Shown in pieces: positions 12,693 through 43,740 of a stretch of 64,000 bases of DNA (the stretch's first letter is position 1; the number at the start of each line of letters is the position of its first letter). The DNA is from Thermococcus onnurineus NA1 (GTDB lineage Archaea > Methanobacteriota_B > Thermococci > Thermococcales > Thermococcaceae). The position numbers and the translations under genes are program-made. The notes beneath the pieces are model-generated. The model was given only the letters and a program-made list of their open reading frames with translations. It ran no database searches and had not been told where the DNA came from. The stretch lies in contig NC_011529.1 in the NCBI RefSeq assembly GCF_000018365.1, positions 1,488,001-1,552,000 on the forward strand, written 5' to 3'.

Positions 12693-15600
12693 CTAGGAAC
12701 CAAAAAACTCGTCCAGGCTTATGCCCTTCTTGGGCTTCTTCATCTTGGACTTCTCCTTCCTAATGTCATTCTCAAGACCTTCAGAAGGCTTGGTCTTTTT
12801 CTCAGCTTTTTTAGACTTCTTTTCAGCTTTCGTCTCGGCTTTTGACTTCTCAGCCTTTTTCTTGAGCTTCCCGTTGGCCTTAAGCTCGTCAAGGTAGCCG
12901 TTCCTGCCGTTGGACTTGCCGGTTCTGGCCTTTATCATCTTCTCGCAGATGTCAGCGGAGAAGCCCATCAAAGTCCTCTGCCTCTCCGGGAAGACGTTCT
13001 CAAAGAGGCTCTTGATGTCCTTTTCTGTCATGCATATCCTCTGCCTCGTGTAGTCCAGCACGTTGTACCGCGTAACCAACATCTTGGCCGTCGGCAGGTA
13101 CTTCTCAATTGCACCTTTACTGACGGTCAGGACGATTTTGCCGCCGCACTTGGGGCACTTGCCGGTGAGCGGTGGTCTCCGGTACTTCGTGTTGCACTTG
13201 ACGCAGCGGAACTCCTGTCTGGTGAAGCTCCTGAGGTTGCCCCTCAGGTCTGGAACGAGGTGGGAGTTGATTATCGTCTCGGCAACGTGGTGCTCGTCAA
13301 CCGCACGAATACGCTCCGCCAAAGCCAGCTGACGGGCGACCTTCTCCTCCATGTCGCCGAGCTGTTTGTACAGGCTCATCTTCGGGCCGAGGCCGATGTC
13401 ATCAGTGTCGTGGGTGAACTTTATGCCCTCGTACATCTCGGGCTTTCCTAGGCGGTCCTCAACGCGCTCGATGAACTTTATCTCCTTGGGCGATTTCATC
13501 TCGTAAGTCGCCGCGTAGAACTCGAGCGGATAATACCTGACAACGTCCATGTTATGGACCTCACTGTCCACCTCGCGCGGGTCAAGGCGGGTGGTAACAA
13601 CCAGCGGCGCGTCCATCTTCCCACCGCGCTTCTCAGGGAGGTAATACTTGCTGAAGTTCAGGAGGGCATCGAGGAGGAGCATTACTGCATCTTCGTCGCC
13701 GTCGCATTGGTGCGTTACCAAATTTTCATTAATCAGAACATTGTGGTAATCTTTGGCGTTTAGTGAGAAGACGAATTCCTCTCTGGGCCTGACGTATTCA
13801 ACACGCCTAACTTTCACGAGCCAGCCATTTTCGGAGAGGTATTTGTCATGATGCCTCTTTTTATCAGAGTGCAGTGAATACACAGAATTCTTCCGGTCAC
13901 TCACAAAGCCTATTTTCTCAAAGAATCTGTCATAGTACTCACCGGCTATGTTCAAGGCATAGACTTTCGAAACCGGAGGCTCACCTCCACGTTCAACATG
14001 GTAGAGCCTGCCGCGGGCATTGCCACGATTGGCGTTCTTGTCAAGGGTGTAGTAACCACGGATTCCAAATTTGGCGAGGAGTAACGTTTCGATATCCTCA
14101 AGCAGAACCTTGTTAACGCTGTAGACGACCACCCTTGGCACGGTTTTGAGAGCGCTCCCATCTCCCTCAAAGTAGGCCCTCAGCATCTCGGCCACAAGTT
14201 CAGGAGTTAGCTTGAAAACAAAGGCAGGAACTCTCTTCGTGTGTGCGTTTCTTCCAGCTTTCAGCACCTCCGTGAAGAGGAGGTACAGGATGCGTGAGCC
14301 GACAGTAACCTTCTCGCCCCTCTCATGAATTCCAAAGCCCTCGCCGAAGGCCTCCCTTAAAGCTTTCTTGAGGTCTTCCCTGGCCTCTTCGTCCGCTATC
14401 GAGAAGCCTATCTGGTAAACGCTATTGCTCTTGCGGGCATAGCCTTCTGCCAAGTAGTAGCCAAGGACGCGGAGGAATGGTCCAACCGGAACGAAGCGCT
14501 TTATCCTAACCTTGTCCCGCTTGAAGCCTAAGTAGCAGTCTGGAACGTCTTTAATCGAGAGTCCCTTCTCCTTCAGAACATTGAGTAGAACATCCAGAGG
14601 CATGGAGTCCCTGCGGAGGTAATCTTCCTTCACTCCAGCACCTATTGACATAAACCATCCAGAGAGACCACGAACCATTATCCTGTCCCACAGCTCTTTA
14701 AACTCCTCGCGAGAGAATTCCTCAAGCAAGTCAATGGACTCAACGTCCGCCTCTGGAAGCTCTAGCTTGGGAACGAGTATCCTGTCGCCCTCCTTGACCT
14801 CAAATGCCCTCTTCTCTATGAATTTCCCGTTTTCGTAGACAAGAACCGGATGGTCAACGGTTGTCTCAAAGGCCCTTCCCAACTCAAGCTCGAAGCGAAT
14901 GGTGTGGTCAGTGCTTGGAGCTTTGATGACATCCTCGATATCTGTCAGAACGACCTTTCCGCTCTCTGGGTCGAAGGAGTAAACTTTGACATCAACCTTC
15001 GGCTTCCTTCTGACGTAAACCATGTTCTCGTAGTGTTCATCCTCGAAGAGCTCGTAGAGCTCTCTAAGCGTTATCCTCATTGGCATTCCGTCAATCTGGA
15101 CGAGTATCCTCGTGTCACCAGGGAAGCAGTTCCTTCTCTTCGCGGCATGATAATACGGGTGGGCATAACCAACCAGCACGTCGGAAAAGCCTATTATCCT
15201 GCCAATAATTCCGGCAGACGTGTGGGGAGCAAGACCGATGACGAGGTGGCCTATCAAATCCTCCATCTTCTCGGCGTTGTAGAACCTTGGCAGTCCGTAG
15301 AACTTCTCAAGCAGGTCATCTATGAAGCGTGCGACTTTGAGGAGGTATCTGCCAGCCTCGTAGGAGAGGATTACGTCCTGCACCTTGAGCTCGACTATCT
15401 GATCGTCCCGCTCTAACGGTTTACCCTCGAAGTCGTGGGTGTAGCCAAGCTCGCGGAGCTTCTCAACGCTTACGCCTATCTCCCGCGGCTTGAAGTGGGT
15501 TATCGGGGCATCGGTGGCGTCGAAACGGATTGTACCATCTTTAAATACGTAGACGTCGTTCTTGGCCCGGAGGAGGCCTTTCTCTAAAGGCTCGGCCATC

Positions 15601-18008: not shown

Positions 18009-18010
18009 TG

Positions 18011-20116
18011 TCAAACACCCTCACAGTACTGGTCAAAGTGCACAACGGCCCTCAAACGGGCGGTTTCCACATCGATTATTGGAACCCTTGCAGGGGTAGG
18101 AACGATGTTCACCATCTTCTGGAACTCCGTCTGGGCCTGCCATGTGCCGGTGTTTATCAAAAAGACGCCGTTGTAAATCTTATACTGCATAACGTGGACG
18201 TGGCCGGCCTGGAAGAGGTCTGGAACGCTCTCTATGACAAGGGTATCCTCCGGATCCGGAGCTATTGGCACCTTCTCACCGAAGGTTGGTGCAAGGTGGC
18301 GGAGCTTGAGGAGGTCGAGCATTGCCTCCGCAGGCCTGTGATGGGTTCTGTTCGGGATAAAGCTGACGACGTCCTCTATCCCCCTTCCGTGAGCTATGAG
18401 AAAGTCCCTGCCATGAAGCTTTACCACCGCAGGATTGCTTATTATGACCGCGTTCTTGAGCTTAAGGAGAGGTCTGGCATATTCTTCGTAAAAGCCCGGC
18501 TGAGGAAGGGCCGTTCTGGCCGCATCGTGGTTGCCCGGGCCAATAAACATTGTTATATGGTCCGGGACGTTGGAGAGGAGGTTCGCCAAAGCCTCGTACT
18601 GATCGAAAATGTCAGGAATAGCAAGCTCGTTGTACTGGCCGGGATAGATGCCTATGCCATCAACGACGTCGCCAGCGATTATCATGTACTTAATCCGGCT
18701 CACGAGCTCCTCCTCGGCCCTGTTGTTGACATCTCCGTTGAGCCACTCGAGGAAGCGCATAAAGGCTTTCTCGCAGAACTTATTGCTTCCGACGTGGACG
18801 TCACTGAGCAGAACAGCGTAGACCTTTTCCTCAAGGGGCGGCTTTTCGCGCTTGAACTTTGGAACGTCCGGCAGGTAAATCTTATCCGCGAAGAAGATGC
18901 CCCTTCCAGAGTAGCGACCCTTGAAGGCCACCACAGCGTCGGGCATTATCTCGAAGAACTTCTTCGAGTCCTCGTTGTTGCGGTTTATGAAGACCTTGAT
19001 TATTCCCGTGTTGTCCTCAACCTCGAACATGAAACCCTTAGCAGTCTCCCTTTTAGAGTTCACGAGGCCGATTATCGTGACGTCATCATCGGTTCTAACG
19101 TAACTTAGCTTGGCTATGTCTATCACACTGCCTATCTCCGGATTCTCGCGAAGAATACGGCGCATCTTCTTGAGCCTGCTCCTGAAGTAGTCCGCATAGA
19201 CCTTGATTATTATCTCCCCCTCCTTGCCCCGGGCGTCCTTGGCCTTCGGAATGGTGAACTTGACGTCCTTGACATCGAAGGCAATTTCATAATCCTCTGG
19301 AATCTCTTTGGCCCTGTAGTAGAAGCCTTCCTTTGGAGATATCCTAAAGTCAGAATAGACTGAATAGCTCTTCTCTTCTTCAGGAACCTCCTCGACGTAG
19401 GCTATCGGAACACCATAGTCACCGTAGACTATCCTCGGCTTGACGCCGTTATCGGCCTCCTCACTGCTCACGTAGCTGGGGACATTGCCATTGTCGTTTC
19501 CAGTCGGAGCCTCTTCGACTGAAAGCCCCCCTTCCACTGGAAGGGTTTCATCAGCAACCTCAGAAATGGAGGCCTCCATGACTTCGGTTTCAGATTCAGA
19601 GTCACCTATAAGGGGGGATTCCTCCAGAGTTCCAGTGGAAATATAACTCTCCCCCCCAGAAAAGTTGGGCTCTTCTTGCCCCAACGGGCCCATTTCAGAC
19701 ATATCACCCCCGCTTTCAGAGGAGGTTCCAGTGGAAATAGACGTTCCTTCGTCAGCACTATGAACAGCAGCCACAGTTGTCAGTTCGAGTATTTCTCCAT
19801 CCACAGCAGACGATTCGACAGTTCCAGGCGTTTCAACAAGCATTTCAGCTTCAGAAGCCATATCTTCTGAAGTTTGCTCTTCAACATGGGGGTGGAATTC
19901 TGCAGAAGAAGAGATCGAACTTTCCAATGGAGCCATGCCCTTCTCCATGAGAAACTCCCTGGCGACGGTGGAGTCTATTACAAAGGTACCCCTTGCCTTG
20001 GCGAACTTGATGAGCTCAGCGAGAGTAAAGTCCTTCTTATAGCCATCAACAAGGAGGTAATAGGCCGACGGAGTGATTAGATAGTTGTTAGCCATTAAAT
20101 CCTCAATCAGACCCAT
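18011..20116 (-). CDS. polB: DNA polymerase D small subunit DP1 (3'-5' exonuclease)
   Basis: 701 aa. N-terminal helical domain (NYLITPSAYYLL, residues 11-22), a long acidic Ser/Thr/Glu-rich disordered linker (about 62-225), an OB fold (about 300-415), then an MRE11-like phosphodiesterase: SDVHVGSNKF, AGDVVDGIG, GPGNHDAAR, AHGRG and GHVHV supply the metal ligands. It proofreads for DP2. The start ATG overlaps the orc1 stop by one base (TGATG). The linker looks longer than in Pyrococcus DP1, and its DNA holds three ORB cores (19532, 19630, 19726); two of them encode the repeated peptide ISTGT. Confidence 0.95.
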   Translation of the reverse strand: MGLIEDLMANNYLITPSAYYLLVDGYKKDFTLAELIKFAKARGTFVIDSTVAREFLMEKGMAPLESSISSSAEFHPHVEEQTSEDMASEAEMLVETPGTVESSAVDGEILELTTVAAVHSADEGTSISTGTSSESGGDMSEMGPLGQEEPNFSGGESYISTGTLEESPLIGDSESETEVMEASISEVADETLPVEGGLSVEEAPTGNDNGNVPSYVSSEEADNGVKPRIVYGDYGVPIAYVEEVPEEEKSYSVYSDFRISPKEGFYYRAKEIPEDYEIAFDVKDVKFTIPKAKDARGKEGEIIIKVYADYFRSRLKKMRRILRENPEIGSVIDIAKLSYVRTDDDVTIIGLVNSKRETAKGFMFEVEDNTGIIKVFINRNNEDSKKFFEIMPDAVVAFKGRYSGRGIFFADKIYLPDVPKFKREKPPLEEKVYAVLLSDVHVGSNKFCEKAFMRFLEWLNGDVNNRAEEELVSRIKYMIIAGDVVDGIGIYPGQYNELAIPDIFDQYEALANLLSNVPDHITMFIGPGNHDAARTALPQPGFYEEYARPLLKLKNAVIISNPAVVKLHGRDFLIAHGRGIEDVVSFIPNRTHHRPAEAMLDLLKLRHLAPTFGEKVPIAPDPEDTLVIESVPDLFQAGHVHVMQYKIYNGVFLINTGTWQAQTEFQKMVNIVPTPARVPIIDVETARLRAVVHFDQYCEGV
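19532..19542 (-). promoter_or_regulatory. ORB-like core inside the DP1 gene (copy 1)
   Basis: Plus-strand TTCCACTGGAA; read on minus it is TTCCAGTGGAAGGGGGG, so the dyad is followed directly by a G-run and lacks the ARCTC arm. It encodes LPVEG (about residues 191-195) in the DP1 linker. Confidence 0.45.
19629..19649 (+). promoter_or_regulatory. ORB element inside the DP1 gene (copy 2, full arm)
   Basis: TTCCAGTGGAAATATAACTC starts at 19630 and matches the oriC element at every consensus position. The run that follows is CCCCCCC in place of the GGGGGG seen at 22785. It encodes YISTGT on the minus strand. Confidence 0.6.
19725..19748 (+). promoter_or_regulatory. ORB-like element inside the DP1 gene (copy 3)
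   Basis: TTCCAGTGGAAATAGA starts at 19726, followed by CGTTCC, a weak arm. It is 96 bp from copy 2 and encodes SISTGT, a repeat of the peptide encoded there. Confidence 0.5.
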
Positions 20117-21363
20117 CAGAGCAGCCTCCTCTGGCGGGACATGCTTATAGTGAGCACCGTCTGGAGCTGGTGATCATGACGGTATATGTTCTTGACCTTA
20201 TAAGGAGTTACGTTGAGCCTTATCTCCTTGGTTCTACCATAGCGGCCCTTGCTGACGACCTTGGCGTTTATGATGCCGAGCATATCTAGTTCATTTATTA
20301 AATCACTCACGCGCCTCTGAGTTAGCGGTTCAAGGTCTATGTGGTCGCAGAGGGACTTGTAGACAGAATAGACGTCGCCAGTGTTTGCGGGCAGCTCGCC
20401 GTTCTCGTCCAGGAGAACGATAGCATAGAGGAGAACCTTTGAGTGGAGCGGAAGGGTCTTTATGACCTCCTCCATGGTGTCCTGCTCTATCTTCTCTTGG
20501 GCCTTCCAGACGTGGCGCTCGGTTACCTTGCTCGCCCCTTCGCGCTCGGCTATTTCTCCAGCGACGCGGAGCAGGTCGAGGGCGCGCCTTGCATCACCGT
20601 GCTCGCGGGCTGCCAAGGCAGCACAGAGGGGAACTACACCGTCATCGAGAACACCTTCGTTAAAGGCATCCTTAGCACGCTGCATGAGTATATCCCGCAG
20701 CTGATTGGCGTCGTAAGGTGGGAAGACAACCTCCTCCTCGCTTAGACTTGAAAGAACGCGCGGGTCCAGGTAGTCCTTGAACTTGAGGTCGTTGGATATG
20801 CCAATTATGCTAACCTTCGCCCGGTGAAGTTCGGTGTTTATCCTCGTGAGAGAGTAAAGAATATCGTCACCGCTCTTTTTGATGAGTTTGTCAATCTCAT
20901 CGAGGACTATGATGACGAAGCGCTCTTTGGCATCTATGACCGCCTTGAGCTTGGAGTACACCTCATCGGTCGGCCATCCTACGAGCGGAACTTCAACGCC
21001 ACTCTCCTCGCGGAAGTGGTTCACTATGTTGGCAAGAACACGGTACTGTGTGTCGACTATCTCACAGTTGACATAGATAACATCAACGGGAACGTTGTAC
21101 TTTTGGGATATCTTCTTCAGCTCCTCTGTGACGAACTTTATGGTGACGGTCTTACCAGTACCGGTTTTGCCGTAGACGAAAACGTTGGAAGGAGTTTCAC
21201 CTCTAAGAACCGGAACGAGAATGTGCGCAAGGTTCTCAATCTGTTCACGCCTGTGAGGAAGCTCTCTGGGCGTATAGCTATGCCTTAAAACCTCCTTATT
21301 CTTGAAAATCTTCTTGGCATGAAGATACTTCTCGAAGATTGAATCAAGGTAATTGTCGTCCAT
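20116..21363 (-). CDS. orc1: Orc1/Cdc6 replication initiator
   Basis: 415 aa. AAA+ initiator that binds ORB DNA and recruits MCM. Walker A is VYGKTGTGKT, Walker B IIVLDEIDKL, sensor I IGISND, and sensor II lies near AREHGDARRALDLLR. A winged-helix domain forms the C-terminus (LTQRRVSDLINELDMLGI, KGRYGRTKEIRL). The ATG at 21363 is preceded by GGTGGTG; the upstream in-frame ATG at 21381 lies inside an ORB core. It is the first gene of orc1-DP1-DP2 and lies near the origin. A TATA-like CTTTAAAATTG about 85 bp upstream may be its promoter. Confidence 0.97.
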   Translation of the reverse strand: MDDNYLDSIFEKYLHAKKIFKNKEVLRHSYTPRELPHRREQIENLAHILVPVLRGETPSNVFVYGKTGTGKTVTIKFVTEELKKISQKYNVPVDVIYVNCEIVDTQYRVLANIVNHFREESGVEVPLVGWPTDEVYSKLKAVIDAKERFVIIVLDEIDKLIKKSGDDILYSLTRINTELHRAKVSIIGISNDLKFKDYLDPRVLSSLSEEEVVFPPYDANQLRDILMQRAKDAFNEGVLDDGVVPLCAALAAREHGDARRALDLLRVAGEIAEREGASKVTERHVWKAQEKIEQDTMEEVIKTLPLHSKVLLYAIVLLDENGELPANTGDVYSVYKSLCDHIDLEPLTQRRVSDLINELDMLGIINAKVVSKGRYGRTKEIRLNVTPYKVKNIYRHDHQLQTVLTISMSRQRRLL

Positions 21364-21375
21364 CAGCACCACCCA

Positions 21376-21395
21376 TTCCACTGGAAATCCAGCTC
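21376..21395 (+). promoter_or_regulatory. ORB element in the orc1 leader
   Basis: TTCCACTGGAAATCCAGCTC matches the ORB pattern with arm GCTC at the standard spacing. It lies 13 bp upstream of the orc1 start codon, so bound Orc1 could repress its own operon. Confidence 0.65.
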
Positions 21396-21622
21396 CAGCC
21401 GTGATTATTGTACAGAGCTCCGAATCACAGTTGGAACGTATGACAATTTTAAAGACAATAACTGTAAATCATACGACTTCATCATTGTGATCATGAACGC
21501 TAAACATGTGCTCCACAGGAAGCACCGGATACAGAGGAAAGCGTAGGTAGTGAGCTTCAGGGGTTTATATGCCTTGTTGAACAGAGGGATGTAAAAAGAA
21601 TAGAGGGCCAACAGAAAAATCG

Positions 21623-22249
21623 TCAGAGATATATTGTGTTGTCCTGTTCACGAGAGTTAGCCTCTTCCTGGGCCTCGAATATCTCTTTGAGCAGCCGTTT
21701 GGCATCGGCTTCAGGCATTCCGACTTTAACCACCAGGAAGCGGAGAAGTTCTTCCCGTGTAGCCCCTTTCTGAAGCCTCTCGAAGATCATCCAGACAATG
21801 CGATCAAACACATCCCGGGCAAAGGCCTCCTCTAAGCCAAGGGCCTCGACGGCCGATTGAAGACCTACCAGAAGTGACGTCAGGGCATCATTGAACTCGG
21901 CCTTACCCAGGGATTTCTTGTCGAGGTCCACACGGAGGTATATCTCATCGTTCATCCCGGAGAGTGTGAATTTCATGAGGTTGACTCTATCATTGAGCAG
22001 GAGAAGTGTGTGGTAAATCTTCAAGCGCTCGTCTTTCGTCATGGAAATGGTCTCCAGACGAAGAGGAACTATCAGATGGACAAAGTCATTAGAGAACATC
22101 ACGATAAGGCCAAATGGCATACGGGGATGCTCAGCAACGTAAGCGTTCTGACCGACGTTTTTTATGACCCAAGGAAGATCCACAATGTCCTTAGCGTTGT
22201 CGTCACCATCCCTAAGCCAGCTGAGAACTTGATTCTCAATATCTTCCAC
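21623..22249 (-). CDS. unknown protein between orc1 and oriC, with C-terminal Ile-Tyr-Leu
   Basis: 208 aa, no signal or membrane segment. The GTG at 22249 is chosen because GGTGAT lies just before it and TTATTAAG upstream fits a TATA box; the longer frame to 22345 would run through that promoter. The central part (LPWVIKNVG, GLIVMFSNDFVHLIVPLRL, IYHTLLLLNDRVNLMKFTL, EIYLRVDLD) resembles a YbjN/type III chaperone-like fold. The C-terminal 70 residues are helical. The protein ends in Ile-Tyr-Leu, as PbaB at 26356 does, which fits the HbYX proteasome-docking pattern. No published function known to me. Confidence 0.65.
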   Translation of the reverse strand: MEDIENQVLSWLRDGDDNAKDIVDLPWVIKNVGQNAYVAEHPRMPFGLIVMFSNDFVHLIVPLRLETISMTKDERLKIYHTLLLLNDRVNLMKFTLSGMNDEIYLRVDLDKKSLGKAEFNDALTSLLVGLQSAVEALGLEEAFARDVFDRIVWMIFERLQKGATREELLRFLVVKVGMPEADAKRLLKEIFEAQEEANSREQDNTIYL

Positions 22250-22295
22250 TGAAATCACCAAGGGAACTTTCGATTCGAAACTTAATAACGGTATC

Positions 22296-22317
22296 GTTCC
22301 AGCGGAAACTGAAGGGG
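22296..22317 (+). promoter_or_regulatory. ORB element of oriC (outer left, degenerate)
   Basis: GTTCCAGCGGAAAC, then TGAA, then GGGG. The dyad has one change and the ARCTC arm is lost, but the G-run is kept. Confidence 0.6.
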
Positions 22318-22503
22318 TCAAAGAACATAATAGTGCATCAAACATTTACATTCGAAAATGAACAATAGCATCCAGATGGGCATTTCCACTGAAAGAAGAA
22401 TGAACATTTTTGGACAGAAAATCATGTACACTAATGCTCCAAATCGTACTATTTTGGTAAACATATGTACTAAACACAAGACAGAACATTAAACGGTTTC
22501 GTA

Positions 22504-22530
22504 GTCCCCCAGAGTTCTGTTTCCGGTGGA
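22504..22530 (-). promoter_or_regulatory. ORB element of oriC (inner left)
   Basis: On the minus strand TCCACCGGAAACAGAACTC is followed by TGGGGG. Arm and G-run are identical in spacing to the inner right copy; two dyad bases differ. Confidence 0.75.
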
Positions 22531-22589
22531 GGCGGGCTTTGGCTACTCCCATATTGTCCTTTGGTTTTTGGTGAAACTCTCCCGCTTTC

Positions 22590-22740
22590 TTTACAATTCC
22601 CAATATTTATATTTTTTCATGAACAATGTTCATAAAAAATCTCAAACTCATAAAGATCATGAAAATTAGTCTAAATATTCAAAGAGTAGATTTAAAATCT
22701 GTTGATTTTATGTTTGTAATGTCCTTTATAAATGGAGCTT
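22590..22740. other. A+T-rich duplex-unwinding region of oriC
   Basis: An almost uninterrupted A/T stretch (CCAATATTTATATTTTTTC, AAAATTAGTCTAAATATTC, TAGATTTAAAATCTG) lying between the two inverted G-run ORBs. It contains the palindrome ATGAAC-aat-GTTCAT (22619-22633) and a second inverted pair AGATTTAAAATCT. No gene is present. Confidence 0.75.
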
Positions 22741-22783
22741 TCTGTTTTTTCTGGCATGTAATCCATCCATTCTCCGAAATTGG

Positions 22784-22813
22784 GTTCCAGTGGAAATGAA
22801 ACTCTGGGGGGTC
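22784..22813 (+). promoter_or_regulatory. ORB element of oriC (inner right, best match)
   Basis: GTTCCAGTGGAAATGAAACT, then C TGGGGGG TC. It has the full dyad, arm AACTC and a six-G run; the reference copy for this window. Confidence 0.9.
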
Positions 22814-22842
22814 TTTCAAATAATCATCGAAAAAGACCTTTG

Positions 22843-22864
22843 TTTCCAGTGGAAATCTAACTCC
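22843..22864 (+). promoter_or_regulatory. ORB element of oriC (outer right, mini-ORB)
   Basis: TTTCCAGTGGAAATCTAACT, then C. Full dyad and arm, no G-run. It lies about 35 bp before the TATA box of the K+ channel gene. Confidence 0.8.
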
Positions 22865-22892
22865 ATTACTGGACACCACAAAGCATTAATGA

Positions 22893-22904
22893 TACTTTTT
22901 TAAA
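22893..22904 (+). promoter_or_regulatory. TATA box of the K+ channel gene
   Basis: ACTTTTTTAAAC centred about 26 bp before the ATG at 22927, so the message is probably leaderless. Its closeness to the outer ORB means origin binding and channel transcription could interfere. Confidence 0.6.
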
Positions 22905-22926
22905 CCTGCTAACGATAGTGTACAAC

Positions 22927-23943
22927 ATGATTCCAGTACCCCTCGTTAGAAGACTCTTGAAGCTCAAGATCCGGGTGAGCAGGAACAAGCTTCTCCTAAT
23001 TGCTACTGTGGTTCTGGGACTGGCGTTAGCTTTTGCGGGTCTGTTCATGTATTTGGAGGGCGTGGACTTCTTTACCGCGTTCTACTGGGCAATAATAACC
23101 ATGGCCACGATCGGCTATGGGGACATAATCCCCCAAACCGAAGCCGGCCGGATAGTGGCTATGATAGCCGCTGTCGCTGGAATCTCGACTTTCACCGCCC
23201 TGGTTTCCATTCTAGCTGAATATTTCATTTCATCGTCTTTGAGGAGGATGACGGGCATGCATCGCGTAAGGTATTCTAGACATTACGTTATCATAGGTCA
23301 GGGAAGTAGCGTTCCCAGCTGTGTGAGTGAGCTCATGTCGGCGATTTCCTCTGGAGATGCTGATGCAAGGCCGATAGTCGTTGTTCTCCCCAGTGAAGAG
23401 GAGCGCAAAAAACTGGAACTTCCGGAAGAGGTGGAGGTTCTCATCGGGGATCCCACGAATAGAGAGACTCTTGAGAGGGCCAAGGTAGGGGATGCGTCCT
23501 ATGTGATACTTTCCCTCGAGGACGACTCGAAGTCTGTCTTCACAACCCTAATGATAAAGCGCATATCTGATGCAAAAGTCTTCGTGGAAGCACTGAAGCC
23601 AGAGAGCGTCGAGCTGCTTAAGCAGGCAGGTGCCGACAGGGTTATAACAAGCAGGAGCCTCGCGGGCAGACTTTTAGCGAGTTCAGTCTTCGAACCCGAA
23701 GTCGTTGATGTCATAGATGACCTGACGACCACCTCCCGGGGCTATGACATATCCACTATTGTAAGGAAGAACCTCTGGGGTGTTCCCTACATCGAGGCGT
23801 TTCAGAAGCTTTATTCGGAGGGCTACTTCCTCGTCGGTTACTACACTGATAGGGCTATCCTCGGACCAAATCTCAATGAACCCATCCCGGAAGGGGCAAA
23901 ACTGCTCGTGATAAGGAGTGTTGTTTCCACTGGAAAAGGCTGA
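22927..23943 (+). CDS. two-helix potassium channel with RCK/TrkA-N domain
   Basis: 338 aa. Two transmembrane helices (LLLIATVVLGLALAFAGLFM; about residues 64-90) flank the pore with selectivity filter TIGYGD. A cytoplasmic RCK domain follows (HYVIIGQGSSVPSCV, then IGDPTNRETLERAKVGDASYVILS, VFVEALKPESVELLKQAGADRVITSRSLAGRLLA) and a TrkA-C-like end. The architecture is MthK-like, gated by a cytoplasmic ligand. The RCK start motif is GQGSS, not GxGxxG, so nucleotide binding may be altered. The ATG at 22927 fits the TATA distance better than the GTG at 22918. Its last codons contain an ORB. Confidence 0.85.
   Translation: MIPVPLVRRLLKLKIRVSRNKLLLIATVVLGLALAFAGLFMYLEGVDFFTAFYWAIITMATIGYGDIIPQTEAGRIVAMIAAVAGISTFTALVSILAEYFISSSLRRMTGMHRVRYSRHYVIIGQGSSVPSCVSELMSAISSGDADARPIVVVLPSEEERKKLELPEEVEVLIGDPTNRETLERAKVGDASYVILSLEDDSKSVFTTLMIKRISDAKVFVEALKPESVELLKQAGADRVITSRSLAGRLLASSVFEPEVVDVIDDLTTTSRGYDISTIVRKNLWGVPYIEAFQKLYSEGYFLVGYYTDRAILGPNLNEPIPEGAKLLVIRSVVSTGKG
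23916..23935 (-). promoter_or_regulatory. ORB element in the 3' end of the K+ channel gene
   Basis: On the minus strand TTCCAGTGGAAACAACACTC: exact dyad and arm ACTC at the standard spacing. In the coding frame it encodes VVSTGK, the last residues before Gly-stop. Confidence 0.6.
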
Positions 23944-24057
23944 ACTCCTGGGATTTCTGGGCTTTTGCTTTATTGTCCTGTGCTTACTCCACTAAATTTG
24001 GCCAATTTGATGGTCTTTTGGCTTTAGAACCAAAATCTTAAAAGTTCCTTTCCCTGA

Positions 24058-24072
24058 GAAAAGTATATAACC
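24058..24072 (+). promoter_or_regulatory. radA promoter (TATA box)
   Basis: AGAAAAGTATATAACC: a strong archaeal BRE/TATA. Transcription would start about 24095, giving a short leader with GGGTGAG before the ATG at 24120. Confidence 0.7.
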
Positions 24073-24119
24073 CTCCAGTTTTTTACCCCTATGGAAGGTA
24101 GTCGTAGCGGGTGAGTGGG

Positions 24120-25181
24120 ATGCCGAAGAAAAAGAAGGCTGAGGATGAAATAAAAGAGCTCGAGGAGTTTGAGGAGCTCGACGTTGTTGAGGAGTCATCA
24201 TCAAGCTCAACCAAGAAGAAGCAGAAAGAGATTAAGACGTTAGAGGATCTTCCGGGCGTTGGTCCCGCCACTGCCGAGAAGCTCCGCGAGGCTGGCTACG
24301 ACAGCATTGAGGCTATAGCCGTTGCATCTCCGATGGAGCTTAAGGAGATAGCCGGTATAAGCGAGGGGGCGGCACTCAAGATAATCCAAGCTGCCAGAGA
24401 GGCAGCTAACATAGGAACCTTCATGCGCGCCGACGAGTACATGGAAAAGCGGAGGACCATAGGCAAGATATCCACCGGAAGCAAGAGCCTCGATAAGCTG
24501 GTCGGCGGTGGTATAGAAACCCAGGCCATAACCGAGGTCTTTGGTGAGTTTGGAAGCGGTAAGACCCAGCTGGCCCACACTCTGGCAGTAATGGTTCAGC
24601 TTCCGCCAGAAGAAGGTGGACTTCAAGGTTCGGTCATCTGGATAGACACGGAGAACACTTTCAGGCCCGAGAGAATACGGCAGATTGCTGAAAACCGCGG
24701 TCTCGATCCGGAGGAGGTCCTCAAGAACATCTATGTTGCAAGGGCATTCAACAGCAACCACCAGATGCTTCTTGTCGAGAGGGCAGAGGAGATAATCAAG
24801 GAGAAAGCCGAGACTGAGAGGCCCGTCAAGCTGATCGTCATAGATTCGCTTATGGCCCACTTCAGAAGTGAGTACGTTGGAAGGGGAACTCTTGCCGAGA
24901 GGCAGCAGAAGCTGGCAAAGCACTTAGCAGACCTTCACCGCATCGCTGACCTCTACGACATAGCAGTCTTCGTCACCAACCAGGTCCAGGCGAAACCTGA
25001 CGCCTTTTTCGGCGATCCGACGAGGCCCGTTGGAGGTCATATACTCGCACACTCCGCGACGCTGAGGATATACCTCAGGAAGGGCAAGGCTGGAAAGCGC
25101 GTCGCCAGGCTCATAGACAGCCCGCACCTGCCCGAGGGAGAGGCTATATTCCGCATCACCGACAAGGGCGTCGAGGACTGA
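24120..25181 (+). CDS. radA: RadA recombinase
   Basis: 353 aa. Archaeal RecA/Rad51 strand-exchange protein. A Lys/Glu/Ser-rich tail (1-38) is followed by an HhH domain ([20 protein letters not shown]), the linker with polymerisation Phe ([10 protein letters not shown]) and the ATPase core: Walker [12 protein letters not shown], Walker [14 protein letters not shown]1/L2 region [13 protein letters not shown] and [15 protein letters not shown]. The ATG at 24120 follows GGGTGAG; the GTG at 24111 lies inside that ribosome site. The radA-nucS neighbourhood near oriC is typical of Thermococcales. Confidence 0.97.
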
Positions 25182-25216
25182 GTTAGCTTTTTAACCCCTC
25201 TTCTTTACCTCTTCCC

Positions 25217-25969
25217 ATGTCAAAAGTTGAGGCAGTGACGAACCCCTCCCGCGAGGAGCTTCTAGGGATAATCGATTCCGCGCTATCAAAGGAGGCCATG
25301 CTGACGATTTTTGCCCGGTGTAAGGTTCACTACGACGGCAGGGCTAAGAGCGAGCTCGGTTCTGGCGACAGGGTTATACTTGTCAAGCCCGACGGTGCTT
25401 TTCTCATTCACCAGAGCAAGAAGCGTGAGCCTGTCAACTGGCAACCGCCCGGAAGCTTCGTAACCGTCGAGGAGCGCGATGGGATTATCGTCCTCCGATC
25501 CGTAAGAAGGAAGCCCAAAGAAATCCTTGAAGTCGAGCTGGAGGAGGTTTACCTCGCCTCCCTCTTTAAGGCCGAGGACTACGAGGAGCTGGCATTAACC
25601 GGCAGCGAGGCTGAGATGGCGGAGATGATATTCAAAAACCCCGAGCTAATTGAGCCTGGCTTCAGGCCCCTCTTCCGCGAGAAGTCCATTGGCCACGGCA
25701 TAGTGGACATCCTTGGAAGGGATAGGGAGGGCAACCTCGTGGTTCTGGAGCTCAAGCGCAGGAGGGCAGACCTCCACGCGGTGAGTCAGCTCAAGCGCTA
25801 CGTTGAGGCTTTGAGGGCTGAGCACCCAGCCGTCAGGGGAATTCTCGTCGCACCTTCGCTTACCTCTGGCGCTAAGAAGCTCCTTGAAAAAGAAGGTCTG
25901 GAATTCAGAAGGGTTCAGCCGCCCAAGAGGGAAAGCGTGACTAAAGGCAGGCAAACGACGCTGTTTTAG
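25217..25969 (+). CDS. nucS: NucS/EndoMS mismatch-specific endonuclease
   Basis: 250 aa. Cleaves both strands at mismatches and works with PCNA. An N-terminal beta-sandwich DNA-binding domain (CKVHYDGRAKSELGSGDRVIL; INWQPPG-like VNWQPPGSFV) precedes a RecB-like nuclease: GHGIVDILGRD, VVLELKRRRA (the D-ExK active site) and VSQLKRYVEAL. The C-terminus RQTTLF resembles a PCNA-interacting peptide. The gene follows radA after 35 bp, with its own TATA-like CTTTTTAAC and no GGTGA, so it may be leaderless. It overlaps the next convergent gene by 4 bp. Confidence 0.95.
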   Translation: MSKVEAVTNPSREELLGIIDSALSKEAMLTIFARCKVHYDGRAKSELGSGDRVILVKPDGAFLIHQSKKREPVNWQPPGSFVTVEERDGIIVLRSVRRKPKEILEVELEEVYLASLFKAEDYEELALTGSEAEMAEMIFKNPELIEPGFRPLFREKSIGHGIVDILGRDREGNLVVLELKRRRADLHAVSQLKRYVEALRAEHPAVRGILVAPSLTSGAKKLLEKEGLEFRRVQPPKRESVTKGRQTTLF

Positions 25970-26346
25970 CCAATGTCCATCTCCTGCGGGAACATCTCCC
26001 TGACTCTGACGAACAAAATTGTATTCTTCTTCCTTATCTCGACGATTCTTCCCAGTCCCAGCAGCCTCAATTGCGCCCTGCAGACTGTGATTTCTCTTTC
26101 ATCGCTCTCCTCCCATGGAATGCGCTGCTCCATGCTCTCGAGTTTTAGCAACTCGGCGAGGAGTCCTTCCGTTCCGATGGTTATGTCCTGGTAGGTTTCG
26201 TATGTGAGAAAGACCCTTCCCAGCTCGCGCGCCCTTTCGAGGGCTACGACGTTCCTCGCGCTTCTGATTTCCAGCGTCTTGTAGGGGCTTCTGAGGAGCT
26301 CATCCAGAACGCGTCTTGCGATTCCAGCTAAGGTCACCGCCTCCAT
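25966..26346 (-). CDS. small conserved protein upstream-paired with PbaB
   Basis: 126 aa, soluble, mainly helical: AGIARRVLDELLRSPYKTLEIRSARNVVALERARELGRVF, with a final beta strand RKKNTILFVRVREMF (both shown only as landmarks; first is residues 7-46). The start has GAGGTGAGAG and lies 9 bp after the pbaB stop, so it is co-transcribed. I do not recognise a family or any catalytic motif. Co-transcription with a proteasome chaperone gene is the only clue. Confidence 0.6.
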   Translation of the reverse strand: MEAVTLAGIARRVLDELLRSPYKTLEIRSARNVVALERARELGRVFLTYETYQDITIGTEGLLAELLKLESMEQRIPWEESDEREITVCRAQLRLLGLGRIVEIRKKNTILFVRVREMFPQEMDIG

Positions 26347-26355
26347 GCTCTCACC

Positions 26356-27084
26356 TCACAGGTAGATGCTCTCGTACTGCTTCTCGGTCTTTCTCCTCGC
26401 CTGCTCCATCTGCTCGTGCATTTTTCTGAGCTGTTCCTCTATCATCTCTGCCTCCTTGATAAGAGGCTCCGTGGAGACCTCTATGGGCGTCAGCTTCTTG
26501 AGAACCTCAACAACGTTGGCTGCTGCCCTCGGGTCTGGTCTGTCCCCAAAGGTCTCGCCGAGGAGAACGTAGGCGTCCAAACCTTCTTTGCTTGCCTCCC
26601 ATAGGAGCTTGCCACTCATGCCCATTATTGAGCCGTACTGGAGTATCTTGACGCCGAAGTTTTCCAGCTCCTTGTTGAGCTCCTCGCGCGCACCGACGCC
26701 CCAGACATCCATTTTCTCCTTGAATAGGCCAATACCAATGCCTCCAAGAGAAATTACCTTCGCTGCGTTCATATCTTTCAGATACCTCACTAGTTCCTTG
26801 GCTATTTCGCTTACTAGAGTTGGAGGCACGTAGATATCGGCAACGGCGAGGATTATGTTGTCTTTTCCGTAGAACCTGAGTGGTGGGTTGGGCTTCCCCT
26901 CAAGGATGAGCGCCATCGGAGGAATGAATGGACTCTCCACGTAGCCTACCATCTCCATTCCGAGTTCCTTCGCTAAGAAGTTGGCCGCTATGTGGCCGAC
27001 CAGGCCTATTCCGGGATATCCCTCGATGAGAATGGGGTCCTTTATCTCTGGCAGAACTATCTTGACTGGCTTCCCGTTCTCCAT
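26356..27084 (-). CDS. proteasome assembly chaperone/activator, PAC2 family (PbaB-like)
   Basis: 242 aa. PAC2-family motifs: LIEGYPGIGLVGHIAANFLAKEL, ESPFIPPMALILEGK, VISLGGIGIG and LWEASKEGLDAYVLLGETF (landmarks across residues 20-190). A C-terminal coiled coil (IEEQLRKMHEQMEQARRKTEK) ends in SIYL, an HbYX-type tail that docks into the 20S proteasome alpha ring. From memory, PbaB is encoded beside MTA phosphorylase in P. furiosus, as here. The ATG at 27084 follows GGGTGAG; the TTG at 27096 is rejected. It is divergent from mtnP. Confidence 0.85.
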   Translation of the reverse strand: MENGKPVKIVLPEIKDPILIEGYPGIGLVGHIAANFLAKELGMEMVGYVESPFIPPMALILEGKPNPPLRFYGKDNIILAVADIYVPPTLVSEIAKELVRYLKDMNAAKVISLGGIGIGLFKEKMDVWGVGAREELNKELENFGVKILQYGSIMGMSGKLLWEASKEGLDAYVLLGETFGDRPDPRAAANVVEVLKKLTPIEVSTEPLIKEAEMIEEQLRKMHEQMEQARRKTEKQYESIYL

Positions 27085-27132
27085 GTTCTCACCCAAGGAA
27101 ATTTTTAGTTTCTAAAGGTTATTAAAGTTTCG

Positions 27133-27152
27133 GAGCTCTATTTCCACTGGAA
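27133..27152 (-). promoter_or_regulatory. ORB element upstream of MTA phosphorylase
   Basis: On the minus strand TTCCAGTGGAAATAGAGCTC: exact dyad and arm GCTC at the standard spacing. It lies just before the TATA-like CTTAAATAAC (about 27162-27171) of mtnP and about 50 bp from the divergent pbaB start. Confidence 0.65.
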
Positions 27153-27201
27153 AGGCAAGTCTTAAATAACTCAAGCCTGATTTTTACAGGGTGATGTCCA
27201 A

Positions 27202-27975
27202 ATGCCGAGGATAGGTATCATAGGCGGTTCCGGTGTTTACGGCGTTTTTGATCCAGAAGAGACCGTCAAGGTTCACACTCCCTACGGCAGGCCTTCGGCT
27301 CCAGTGGAAATCGGGAAGATTGGGGGCGTCGAGGTCGCCTTCATACCGCGCCACGGCAAGCACCACGAGTTCCCGCCGCACGAGGTTCCATATAGGGCGA
27401 ACATCTGGGCTCTCAAGGAGCTTGGCGTCGAGCGCGTCATCGGCGTAACAGCCGTCGGCTCGCTCCGCGAGGAGTACAAGCCGGGAGACATCGTCATAAC
27501 CGACCAGTTCATTGACTTCACGAAAAAGCGCGACTACACCTTCTACAACGGGCCAAGAGTTGCCCACGTCAGCATGGCCGACCCCTTCTGCCCCGAGATG
27601 AGGAAAATATTCTACGAGACGGCTAAAGAGCTCGGCTTCCCTGTCCATGAGAAGGGCACCTACGTCTGTATAGAGGGTCCGAGGTTCTCAACGAGGGCCG
27701 AGAGCTTTATGTTCAGACAGTACGCTCACATCATCGGCATGACGCTTGTTCCGGAGATAAACCTCGCCAGGGAGCTTGGCATGTGCTACGTAAACATCGC
27801 AACCGTTACCGACTACGACGTCTGGGCCGACAAGCCCGTCGATGCTCAGGAGGTCATGAAGGTCATGGCTGAGAACAACTATAAAGTTCAGGAGCTTCTC
27901 AAGAAGGGAATTCCACGCATACCGGAGGAGAGGAAGTGCGGTTGCGCCGAGGTGCTGAAGAGCATGTTTGTTTGA
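27202..27975 (+). CDS. mtnP: 5'-methylthioadenosine phosphorylase
   Basis: 257 aa. Cleaves MTA (from polyamine synthesis) with phosphate to adenine and methylthioribose-1-phosphate. Visible: [33 protein letters not shown] (as landmarks), the phosphate-site [39 protein letters not shown] and TDYDVWAD. The C-terminal KCGCAEVLK holds the CxC disulfide motif of the P. furiosus enzyme. The ATG is preceded by GGGTGATG. MtaD-type deaminase at 28653 acts on the same substrate. Confidence 0.94.
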
Positions 27976-41055: not shown

Positions 41056-42465
41056 ATGGGGGCACCAAAACTGGACTTCATGTTTTACCCGAAAAGCGTG
41101 GCTGTCATAGGCGCTTCAAATGTTCCAGGAAAGGTTGGAAACGCGATAATGCGCTCGATAACGCTCAAGTATGAGGGTAAGGTCTACGCTGTCAACGTCA
41201 AGGGTGGCGAAGTAGAGGTCAATGGAAAGAAGTTCCCAGTTTATAGGAGCATTAAGGAAATTTCCGATGAGATTGATGTGGCAGTTATCGCCGTTCCGGC
41301 CAAGTTTGTTCCTGATGTTATCGATGAGTGTGGCGAGAAGGGTGTTAAGGGCGCAGTCGTCATTTCTGCTGGCTTCAAGGAAGCCGGAAGGGCAGACCTT
41401 GAGGAGGAAATTGTTAAGAGAGCCAGAAAGTGGGGCATTCGCTTGGTTGGTCCGAACTGTCTCGGCGTCACAAACCTTGAGAACGGCTTTGACTGCAACT
41501 TCAATCCTCCAGAAAGACAGGCTAGGCCACCCGCTGGCAAGATAGCCTTCATGAGCCAGAGTGGTGCTTTTGGGGCTGCCATTCTTGATTGGGCGGCAAG
41601 TCACAAGATAGGGATGAGCAAGTTCATCAGCCTCGGCAACATGGCTGACCTTGACGAGAGCGACTTCATGGCCTATCTCGGTGAGGATCCGAAAACGGGC
41701 GTCATAACCGGCTACATCGAGGGGGTCAAGGACGGAAGGAAGTTCTTTAACACTGCCAAAGAGGTCACCCTCAAGAAGCCTGTCATAATCCTCAAGAGTG
41801 GAAGAACCGAGGCCGGAGCTAAGGCGGCAGCGAGCCACACAGGCTCACTTGCCGGCTCTTACGCCATATACCAGGCAGCTTTCAAACAAGCCGGTGTTCT
41901 CGAGGCGAAGAGCATGCGCCAGCTCTTCAACTACGCCAAGGCTCTGGCAATGCAGAAGCCTGCAATGGGCAATCGCGTTGCCATAGTCACAAACGGTGGT
42001 GGCGCTGGAGTCATGATGAGCGATGGCCTGCTTGAGCGTGGAATGGAGCTTGCCGAGTTCACCGAGCAGACTAATGAGCGCTTTAGGAAGGACATAGAGG
42101 AGGGCAAGCTCCCGCACCACATGAGCTACAAGAACCCGATAGACGTCATTGGCGACGCCCCATCCAACAGATACGAGAGGGCCATGCGCTACGCCCTTGA
42201 GGATCCGAACGTTGACGTTCTTGTCGTTATCGCACTCTTCCAGAGCCCCGCTCTCGACGAGGGAATCGTTGATGCTGTTGCAAAGATGCAGGAATACGGC
42301 AAGCCTATAGTCTTCGTCGCCCCGGGAGGAGACTATCCGCACAAGATGGCAAGGAATATCGAGCTCAAAGGCGTTCCGGTCTACGAGACTGTTGAGGACG
42401 GCGTCGATGCCGTCTATGCCCTCGTCAGATACGGCGAGTGGCTTAGGGAGAATGGAAAACTTTAA
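41056..42465 (+). CDS. ADP-forming acetyl/acyl-CoA synthetase alpha subunit
   Basis: 469 aa. The CoA-binding domain (MFYPKSVAVIGASNVPGKVGNAI) and ligase domain (FMSQSGAFGAAILDWAA) are followed by the phosphohistidine loop AAASHTGSLAGSYAIYQAAFKQAG (landmark) and IVTNGGGAGVMMSDG. It resembles the ACS-I alpha chain of P. furiosus, which uses acetyl-CoA and other acyl-CoAs. The beta subunit is not adjacent. GGAGGTGA precedes the ATG at 41056, and AACTTAAATAG is a plausible TATA box. Confidence 0.93.
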   Translation: MGAPKLDFMFYPKSVAVIGASNVPGKVGNAIMRSITLKYEGKVYAVNVKGGEVEVNGKKFPVYRSIKEISDEIDVAVIAVPAKFVPDVIDECGEKGVKGAVVISAGFKEAGRADLEEEIVKRARKWGIRLVGPNCLGVTNLENGFDCNFNPPERQARPPAGKIAFMSQSGAFGAAILDWAASHKIGMSKFISLGNMADLDESDFMAYLGEDPKTGVITGYIEGVKDGRKFFNTAKEVTLKKPVIILKSGRTEAGAKAAASHTGSLAGSYAIYQAAFKQAGVLEAKSMRQLFNYAKALAMQKPAMGNRVAIVTNGGGAGVMMSDGLLERGMELAEFTEQTNERFRKDIEEGKLPHHMSYKNPIDVIGDAPSNRYERAMRYALEDPNVDVLVVIALFQSPALDEGIVDAVAKMQEYGKPIVFVAPGGDYPHKMARNIELKGVPVYETVEDGVDAVYALVRYGEWLRENGKL

Positions 42466-42550
42466 ATCCTCTTCCTTCCTTTTTCTTCCCATGCTTGGTG
42501 ATTGTTTTTGGCCTTGGTGAAGCCTTCCTCTTCTGCCCCCGCTTAGTCTG

Positions 42551-42570
42551 GAGTTTCGTTTCCACTGGAA
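42551..42570 (-). promoter_or_regulatory. ORB element in the trpS leader
   Basis: On the minus strand TTCCAGTGGAAACGAAACTC: exact dyad and exact AACTC arm, as close to the oriC copy as any in the window. A G-run (GGGGG) is present but displaced by about 9 bp. It sits 3 bp before the trpS ribosome site GGAGGTG (42573-42579). Confidence 0.7.
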
Positions 42571-42585
42571 ATGGAGGTGCTTTGA

Positions 42586-43740
42586 ATGGACGAGTTTAAG
42601 GTTACCCCATGGGACGTTGAGGGTTTGGTGGACTACAACAAGCTGATAGAGGAATTTGGAACGAGTCCTTTGACGGACGAGCTGCTTGAGAAGACCGCCC
42701 AGCTGACCAAGAGCGAGCTACCGCTCTACTTCAGGAGGAGGTTCTTCTTCTCCCACAGGGACTACGATAAGGTTCTTCAGGACTACGAGAGTGGAAAAGG
42801 TTTCTTCCTCTACACCGGGAGGGGTCCGAGCGGGCCGATGCACATAGGCCACATCATACCCTTCTTCGCGACGAAGTGGCTCCAGGAGAAGTTCGGCGTG
42901 AACCTCTACATCCAGATAACCGACGACGAGAAGTTCCTGTTCAAGGACAAGCTCACCTTTGAGGACACCAAGTATTGGGCCTATCAGAACATCCTTGATA
43001 TAATAGCGGTCGGCTTCGACCCGGACAGGACATTCATCTTCCAGGACAGCGAGTTCACCAAGATTTACGAGATGGCCATTCCGATAGCCAAGAAGATAAA
43101 CTTCTCGATGGCGAAAGCCGTTTTCGGCTTTACCGAGCAGAGCAAGATTGGAATGATTTTCTATCCGGCTATTCAGGCTGCACCGACCTTCTTTGAGAAG
43201 AAGCGCTGTCTCATTCCGGCGGCCATAGACCAGGATCCCTACTGGAGGCTCCAGCGCGACTTTGCCGAGAGCCTTGGCTACTACAAGACCGCAGCCATCC
43301 ACAGCAAGTTCGTGCCGGGACTTATGGGCCTCGAAGGGAAGATGAGCGCCAGCAAGCCCGAGACGGCCATCTACCTGACCGACGATCCGGAAGAGGTCGG
43401 CAGGAAGATATGGAAGTACGCCCTCACCGGAGGGAGGGCGACAGCAAAGGAGCAACGCGAGAAGGGAGGGGAGCCCGAGAAGTGCGTCGTCTTCAAGTGG
43501 CTGGAGATATTCTTCGAAGAGGACGACAAGAAGCTCATGGAGCGCTACCACGCCTGTAAAAACGGCGAGCTTCTCTGCGGCCAGTGCAAGCGCTACCTCA
43601 TAAAGAAGGTGCAGGAGTTCCTGAAGGAGCACCAGAAGAAGCGCAAGGAGGCCGAGAAGAAGGTCGAAAAGTTCAAGTACACGGGCGAGCTGGCGAGGGA
43701 ACAGTGGGATAAAGCCGTTCCGGAGGCGCTGAAGGGCTGA
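42586..43740 (+). CDS. trpS: tryptophanyl-tRNA synthetase
   Basis: 384 aa, eukaryote-like archaeal form. Class I signatures: GRGPSGPMHIGHIIPF (HIGH) and KMSASKPETAIYL (KMSKS). A C-terminal cysteine cluster (CKNGELLCGQCKRYL) may bind zinc, and a Lys-rich helical end follows. It charges tRNA-Trp. The ATG follows GGAGGTGCTTTGA. An ORB element lies directly before the ribosome site, so Orc1 binding could affect expression. Confidence 0.95.
   Translation: MDEFKVTPWDVEGLVDYNKLIEEFGTSPLTDELLEKTAQLTKSELPLYFRRRFFFSHRDYDKVLQDYESGKGFFLYTGRGPSGPMHIGHIIPFFATKWLQEKFGVNLYIQITDDEKFLFKDKLTFEDTKYWAYQNILDIIAVGFDPDRTFIFQDSEFTKIYEMAIPIAKKINFSMAKAVFGFTEQSKIGMIFYPAIQAAPTFFEKKRCLIPAAIDQDPYWRLQRDFAESLGYYKTAAIHSKFVPGLMGLEGKMSASKPETAIYLTDDPEEVGRKIWKYALTGGRATAKEQREKGGEPEKCVVFKWLEIFFEEDDKKLMERYHACKNGELLCGQCKRYLIKKVQEFLKEHQKKRKEAEKKVEKFKYTGELAREQWDKAVPEALKG

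Follow-up and report, generated by a model that had tools for sequence, protein, structure and literature searches.

In the gene for bacterial release factor 2 (RF2, prfB), the +1 frameshift takes place at the site CUU_U, or in a minority of cases UUU_U, with a Shine-Dalgarno (SD) stimulator upstream and the slow codon UGA in the A site, and in the yeast element Ty1 the shift site is CUU_AGG_C, where GGC is the +1 codon (PMC5009743). In the literature that was searched, regulatory +1 shifts due to a specific uncharged tRNA appear as a starvation artefact, in retroelements, or as RF2-like stop-codon feedback, and it contains no cellular amino-acid sensor of such kind, nor a case in which an aminoacyl-tRNA synthetase gene or biosynthetic operon is controlled in this way. 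A search for reports of frameshifting in trpS or the trp operon in archaea found nothing; neither trpS nor tryptophan nor Thermococcus is mentioned in a review of archaeal recoding (PMC8211752), and according to a transcriptome paper on T. kodakarensis, attenuators in archaea lacked direct support (PMC4247193).

The trpS leader of Thermococcus onnurineus NA1 is compared here with these systems. All positions are those of the window, viz. the whole stretch of 64,000 nt that was analysed. Based on the sequence characteristics described below, it is quite likely that this leader works as a +1 programmed frameshift cassette that senses tryptophan, by means of which a shortage of charged tRNA-Trp would raise the levels of TrpRS and TrpC. 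The features of the leader are as follows.

42460..42467, plus strand: TATA box CTTTAAAT of the trpS promoter, with AAAA (BRE-like) just upstream; it overlaps the end of the upstream gene, acetate-CoA ligase alpha
42490..42491, plus strand: transcription start predicted from the TATA spacing, making the leader ORF leaderless or nearly so
42491..42520, plus strand: zero-frame leader ORF MLGDCFWPW and stop, 9 codons, ATG CTT GGTGAT TGT TTT TGG CCT TGG TGA
42497..42502, plus strand: internal SD-like GGTGAT, predicted frameshift stimulator, with GGT bias and a match to the SD consensus
42506..42511, plus strand: predicted +1 slip site TTT_T, then Trp TGG (42509-42511) as the slow A-site codon
42510..42599, plus strand: +1-frame extension that would be entered by the slip, GLGEAFLFCPRLVWSFVSTGNGGALNGRV and stop, the stop overlapping the trpS start
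42573..42579, plus strand: trpS SD sequence GGAGGTG
42586..43740, plus strand: trpS, tryptophanyl-tRNA synthetase (NCBIfam NF008924, 755 bits, and TIGR00233, 353 bits, both above cut-off)

The promoter sequence AAAAnnTTTAWAT is invariant in the aligned Thermococcaceae leaders and the first base of TTTAWA lies 29-30 nt upstream of the leader ATG in 67 of the 75 leaders. As the median TATA-to-start distance in T. kodakarensis is 23 bp (PMC4247193), transcription is predicted to start at or beside the leader ATG at 42491. The zero-frame ORF, whose stop lies 65 nt before trpS, is the kind of short ORF with Trp codons upstream of a Trp-related gene that is seen in the bacterial trp attenuators. However, this leader differs from them in keeping a slip site and an open +1 frame, and no terminator/antiterminator pair was established. 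Every readable Thermococcaceae leader has a zero-frame ORF that includes an in-frame Trp codon, the peptide having the form Met-x-Gly-[Gly/Asp]-x-[Phe/Leu]-Trp, and in all 77 Thermococcaceae leaders with the motif described below the zero frame stops 2-4 codons on (UGG counted), despite changes in the last codons and the stop triplet. Of 41 genomes, 21 have a single match to the 30-nt leader-ORF pattern, in each case before trpS, and none has a match elsewhere. A second ORF, starting from the TTG in CTTTGG, was rejected, as it is not kept open across genera.

The core motif that is shared across phyla is GGTGR-N4-YTTTGG, which in the leader is laid out as GGTGRN-NNN-YTT-TGG. In all 98 motif loci the Trp codon TGG directly follows TTT (78 loci) or CTT (20 loci), never a synonym, with the qualification that the motif search itself demanded YTTTGG and that the unbiased subset is the Thermococcaceae leaders, of which 77 of the 77 complete ones match; the sole one that does not match (L077) is cut by a contig end. 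In the Thermococcaceae trpS genes, by comparison, TTT makes up 24% of Phe codons and CTT 18% of Leu codons. The first Gly codon is likewise GGT in 97 of the 98 motif loci versus 19% of the Gly codons in Thermococcaceae trpS, and no fixed choice is seen at codon 5 or at the third position of codon 4. A reading of the leader as purely a Trp arrest peptide was dropped, because what is constrained is the nucleotide sequence (GGT, YTT) and the +1 frame. The leader GGTGAT also fits the SD consensus GGDGRD (PMC5316973), and GGTGRN is placed 3 nt before the slip codon. In these respects the cassette resembles RF2, viz. a short zero-frame ORF, an SD-like stimulator separated from the slip codon by 3 nt, a CUU_U or UUU_U site, a slow A-site codon decoded via the gene's own product and, in the fused lineages and trpC discussed below, a main product in the +1 frame. 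However, the A-site codon is the Trp codon UGG rather than the stop codon UGA, so that the site may work in an RF2-like manner but is not a prfB site; further, the cassette is archaeal, it would sense charged tRNA-Trp rather than a release factor, its zero frame ends 2-4 codons later, and in Thermococcaceae the +1 frame meets trpS by overlap and not by fusion. The yeast Ty1 and ABP140 sites (CUU_AGG_C) are similar in having a slippery CUU, a poorly supplied sense codon in the A site and GGC as the +1 codon, which in the cassette is GGN, but they lack an SD stimulator, employ an Arg codon and serve retroelement expression rather than feedback. A search with the general slip pattern, allowing any A-site codon, recovered mainly trpS in 13 genomes and otherwise a few scattered single matches, and no convincing case of the same architecture without the GGTGRN motif was found in other archaeal trpS leaders.

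All 77 Thermococcaceae leaders have a +1 frame that is free of stops up to the trpS start, whereas the other two frames are open in none of the 77, and the +1-frame stop is found between -6 and +11 relative to the trpS ATG in 74 of 75 leaders, i.e. the frame overlaps trpS rather than being fused to it. In neutral simulations within the genus, 23 of 400 kept all tips open, making openness alone weakly surprising, and for five divergent spacer clusters the joint probability of openness is about 0.003. The openness of this frame taken alone is thus of limited statistical force and the architecture is the stronger evidence. The +1 peptide showed no excess of third-position change and no coding-type constraint, and it seems that only the openness of the frame is kept, not the peptide sequence.

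Outside Thermococcaceae, the +1 frame is continuous with that of trpS in 17 loci (L079-L082, L084-L087, L101, L107, L108, L113, L122, L123, L130, L134 and L168), and likewise in L132, where the zero-frame start is GTG. In these fused trpS loci, as in nine trpC genes, the zero frame ends early and the product is encoded in the +1 frame. One example of this kind is L134 (Methanodesulfokora), in which the part of the trpS frame that runs from a stop to the conserved N-terminus contains no ATG, GTG or TTG, and in which the zero frame has a good SD followed by ATG ATG GGG GAT CGT CTT TGG. Due to the lack of a start codon in the trpS frame, a frameshift seems the simplest route to the enzyme in this case. 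In three other loci (L165, L175 and L176) the +1 frame is unfused and ends 7-13 nt before the trpS-aligned region, i.e. they represent the overlapping type outside Thermococcaceae. The loci L079, L081 and L084 come from 'Thermoproteota'/'Crenarchaeota' MAGs (G088-G090), which encode a Thermococcus-like TrpRS (78-79% identical) with the cassette and also a second TrpRS (38-40% identical). The L079-L087 cases, with a second TrpRS in the three genomes checked, look like horizontal transfers of trpS together with its leader. On the basis of these comparisons it is likely that several archaeal phyla share a device in which UGG is placed at an RF2-like slip site, such that scarcity of charged tRNA-Trp would drive a +1 shift into trpS and trpC.

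The trpC gene, which is the first gene of the trp operon, was detected above the family cut-off in 7 of 41 sampled Thermococcaceae, and the genome of T. onnurineus NA1 is not among these seven. All seven of the trpC genes found by the family search carry a fused cassette, as do two further trpC genes that were identified in a pattern search of 94 genomes; the ten other matches in this search were not in trpC, were mostly inside coding frames, and look like chance. The trpC cassette consists of an SD, a spacing of 5-6 nt, ATG or GTG, and GGTGRN NNN TTT TGG, with the +1 frame fused to TrpC; in the seven family-search genes the zero-frame stop follows after 3-10 codons, the Trp codon counted. The spacing of the SD suits the zero-frame start and not the +1-frame GTG. 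Hence in Thermococcaceae the predicted cassette is a mark of both Trp-related transcripts that were tested, viz. trpS and trpC. However, the T. kodakarensis trp operon has a known transcription regulator, Tar (PMC6737238), which counts against the cassette explanation.

The conservation and geometry of the site, the frames and the starts point to slipping of the ribosome, to tryptophan shortage as its driver, and to a coupling with trpS, in the following manner. Ribosomes would begin at the leaderless ATG at 42491 and reach the stage where the Phe/Leu codon YUU is in the P site and UGG is in the A site. If charged tRNA-Trp is ample, UGG would be read and translation would terminate two codons later, about 65 nt upstream of trpS. 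However, if charged tRNA-Trp is scarce, the ribosome would pause at UGG and the SD-like GGTGRN would aid the slip of the P-site tRNA from YUU to UUU, after which translation would proceed in the +1 frame. In Thermococcaceae, where this frame ends overlapping or touching the trpS start, coupling would lift trpS translation and perhaps transcription readthrough; reinitiation, unfolding and protection from termination are candidate routes. In the other lineages and in trpC, the +1 frame would be the enzyme itself, as in bacterial RF2. Thermococcaceae trpS has its own SD, which counts against this explanation to the extent that the leader need not be obligatory.

The trpS leader also contains a sequence resembling the origin recognition box (ORB), the Orc1/Cdc6 site of Thermococcales, for which the relevant features are as follows.

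42551-42570, minus strand: ORB-like site TTCCAGTGGAAACGAAACTC, exact 20-mer match, scored with the ORB matrix
22785..22804, plus strand: best origin ORB, differing from the trpS site at one position
20116..21381, minus strand: cdc6/orc1, replication initiator, given as reference (NCBIfam NF001625, 744 bits)

This site lies about 21-22 kb from cdc6, and the trpS SD (42573-42579) begins 2 bp past its end. At up to 3 mismatches, the chance expectation for the 20-mer is 0 matches in the 64,000-nt window, and in the whole genome (1,847,607 bp) its first 17 nt are found at up to 1 mismatch only in the trpS leader and in the origin copy at 22785. Genome-wide there are just nine copies of the 12-mer core TTTCCASTGGAA, of which six are within about 7.5 kb of the cdc6/origin region, one is at trpS, one is 5.7 kb past trpS and one is distant. 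With a matrix built from 103 ORBs close to cdc6 in 30 same-genus genomes, the site scores 34.9 versus a median of 33.5 for origin ORBs and ranks third within the window, which agrees with the ORB consensus and bears out the initial annotation, where the site was described as a perfect ORB as good as the origin copy. The G-run at non-standard spacing that had also been reported is likewise seen: the nearest one, GGGGG, begins some 10-12 bp past the site, as opposed to 1 bp for the GGGGGG of the origin copy at 22785, and the canonical G-run is thus missing. The trpS site is similar to other Thermococcales ORBs and mini-ORBs in its sequence, its orientation-specific flank and its near-origin position, but differs in being single, in a gene leader, without the canonical G-run and restricted to a genus. 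The cluster of origin ORBs itself (19526-27311, with a copy at 27140) is wider than the intergenic region adjoining cdc6; it stretches over cdc6, from the gene for the small subunit of polD to past radA. In the same window, a DNA polymerase D large-subunit-like ORF of 1773 aa (12693-18014, minus strand) contains an apparent intein (CFPGDTRILVQIDG ... LINENLVTHQC). A single palindromic ORB core is present at G000:C1:1102818-1102830, about 0.4 Mb from the origin.

Conservation in the trpS leaders of relatives, which had been proposed as a check, was borne out within the genus: the ORB is present in the same orientation in 26 of 28 sampled same-genus genomes. However, it is present in only 1 of 30 leaders from other Thermococcaceae genera. 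This one leader (L016, from G009) precedes a TrpRS that is 90% identical, and its trpS may have been transferred from the genus of T. onnurineus. As two same-genus genomes (G060 and G022) and nearly all other genera retain the leader but are without the ORB, the two elements are separable and control of trpS does not hinge on the ORB. The putative Orc1 site is best regarded as a genus-specific addition within the spacer read by the +1 frame, which reads it as SFVSTGNGG.

Several other explanations of this leader need to be considered. It is possible that no frameshift takes place and that translation starts from the GTG of GGTG (or from the ATG in the GTGATG of trpC), giving an ORF of 30-odd codons that overlaps trpS in Thermococcaceae and the true enzyme start in the fused lineages and trpC, with the Trp codon of the other frame a by-product of a conserved Phe-Gly. 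The GTG inside GGTG is indeed a possible +1-frame start in nearly all loci, a fact that counts against the frameshift explanation, and the fused frames are open from it. However, L134 is without such a start, all loci but one retain an out-of-frame ATG 1-6 codons before the motif, and this ATG sits at the start fixed by the promoter, or, in trpC, 5-6 nt past an SD from which the GTG is too distant. Leaderless mRNAs of T. onnurineus moreover start with ATG in 94.9% of cases (PMC5316973), and a GTG start leaves unexplained why the codon is TTT and never TTC, why a pyrimidine precedes, why G stands before GTG and why the zero frame stops 2-4 codons on. Based on these considerations, we regard this explanation as unlikely. 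Control by a classical leader peptide, in which stalling at the Trp codon without any shift would alter RNA folding, termination or mRNA stability before trpS, fits with the presence of the Trp codon near the end of a short promoter-proximal ORF in all leaders and with the U-rich stretches downstream in some genera. However, the open +1 frame, the fused trpS and trpC genes, and the fixed GGT and YTT are left unexplained by it, an Rfam scan of the trpS leader gave no match, and it is considered very unlikely.

The ORB could also be the main regulator, with Orc1 acting as a roadblock to elongation at +61 to +80, or being titrated, and thus tying trpS to replication. The ORB-grade score, the match that extends past the palindrome, and the retention in one orientation in the same-genus genomes can be cited in its favor, as can the distance from cdc6, usually 17-135 kb; in G060, where trpS is about 650 kb away, the ORB has been lost, although this single genome is only suggestive of a loss with distance. 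Against a main role, the ORB is missing in G022, where trpS is 78 kb from cdc6, and nearly everywhere in other genera, even at 13-25 kb. Further, the canonical G-run is missing, and in T. kodakarensis cdc6 and the presumed origin can be deleted with no effect on growth (PMC5663688). The initial annotation had stated that binding here would block trpS transcription. However, this claim is weak, as the site, at about +61 to +80, lies in the message, which is probably translated here, rather than in the promoter; given a TATA box at 42460-42467 and a start predicted near 42491, only an elongation roadblock would be possible and not promoter occlusion. From the sequence comparisons, a main regulatory role for the ORB is thus most improbable, though Orc1 may play an additional part at this site. 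It is also rather improbable, albeit compatible with the frameshift explanation as an added layer, that the ORB palindrome is retained as an RNA hairpin, UUUCC-ACU-GGAAA, beside the trpS SD. The five inner pairs are retained in 41 of 44 leaders, some as G-U pairs, and G060 retains CCUUUU/GAAAGG after loss of the ORB. However, three leaders break one pair yet keep the ORB, compensatory changes are few, the conservation runs past the hairpin (GAGTTTC), and a stem of five A-U-rich pairs would have little stability at 80 C.

If the frameshift explanation is correct, then the start sites of trpC, and those of TrpRS in several lineages, are probably misannotated. As T. kodakarensis is genetically tractable, the idea is directly testable. 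Further, trpS and trpC would then constitute a two-gene frameshift regulon, in which cells use frameshifting at a hungry codon as an amino acid sensor.
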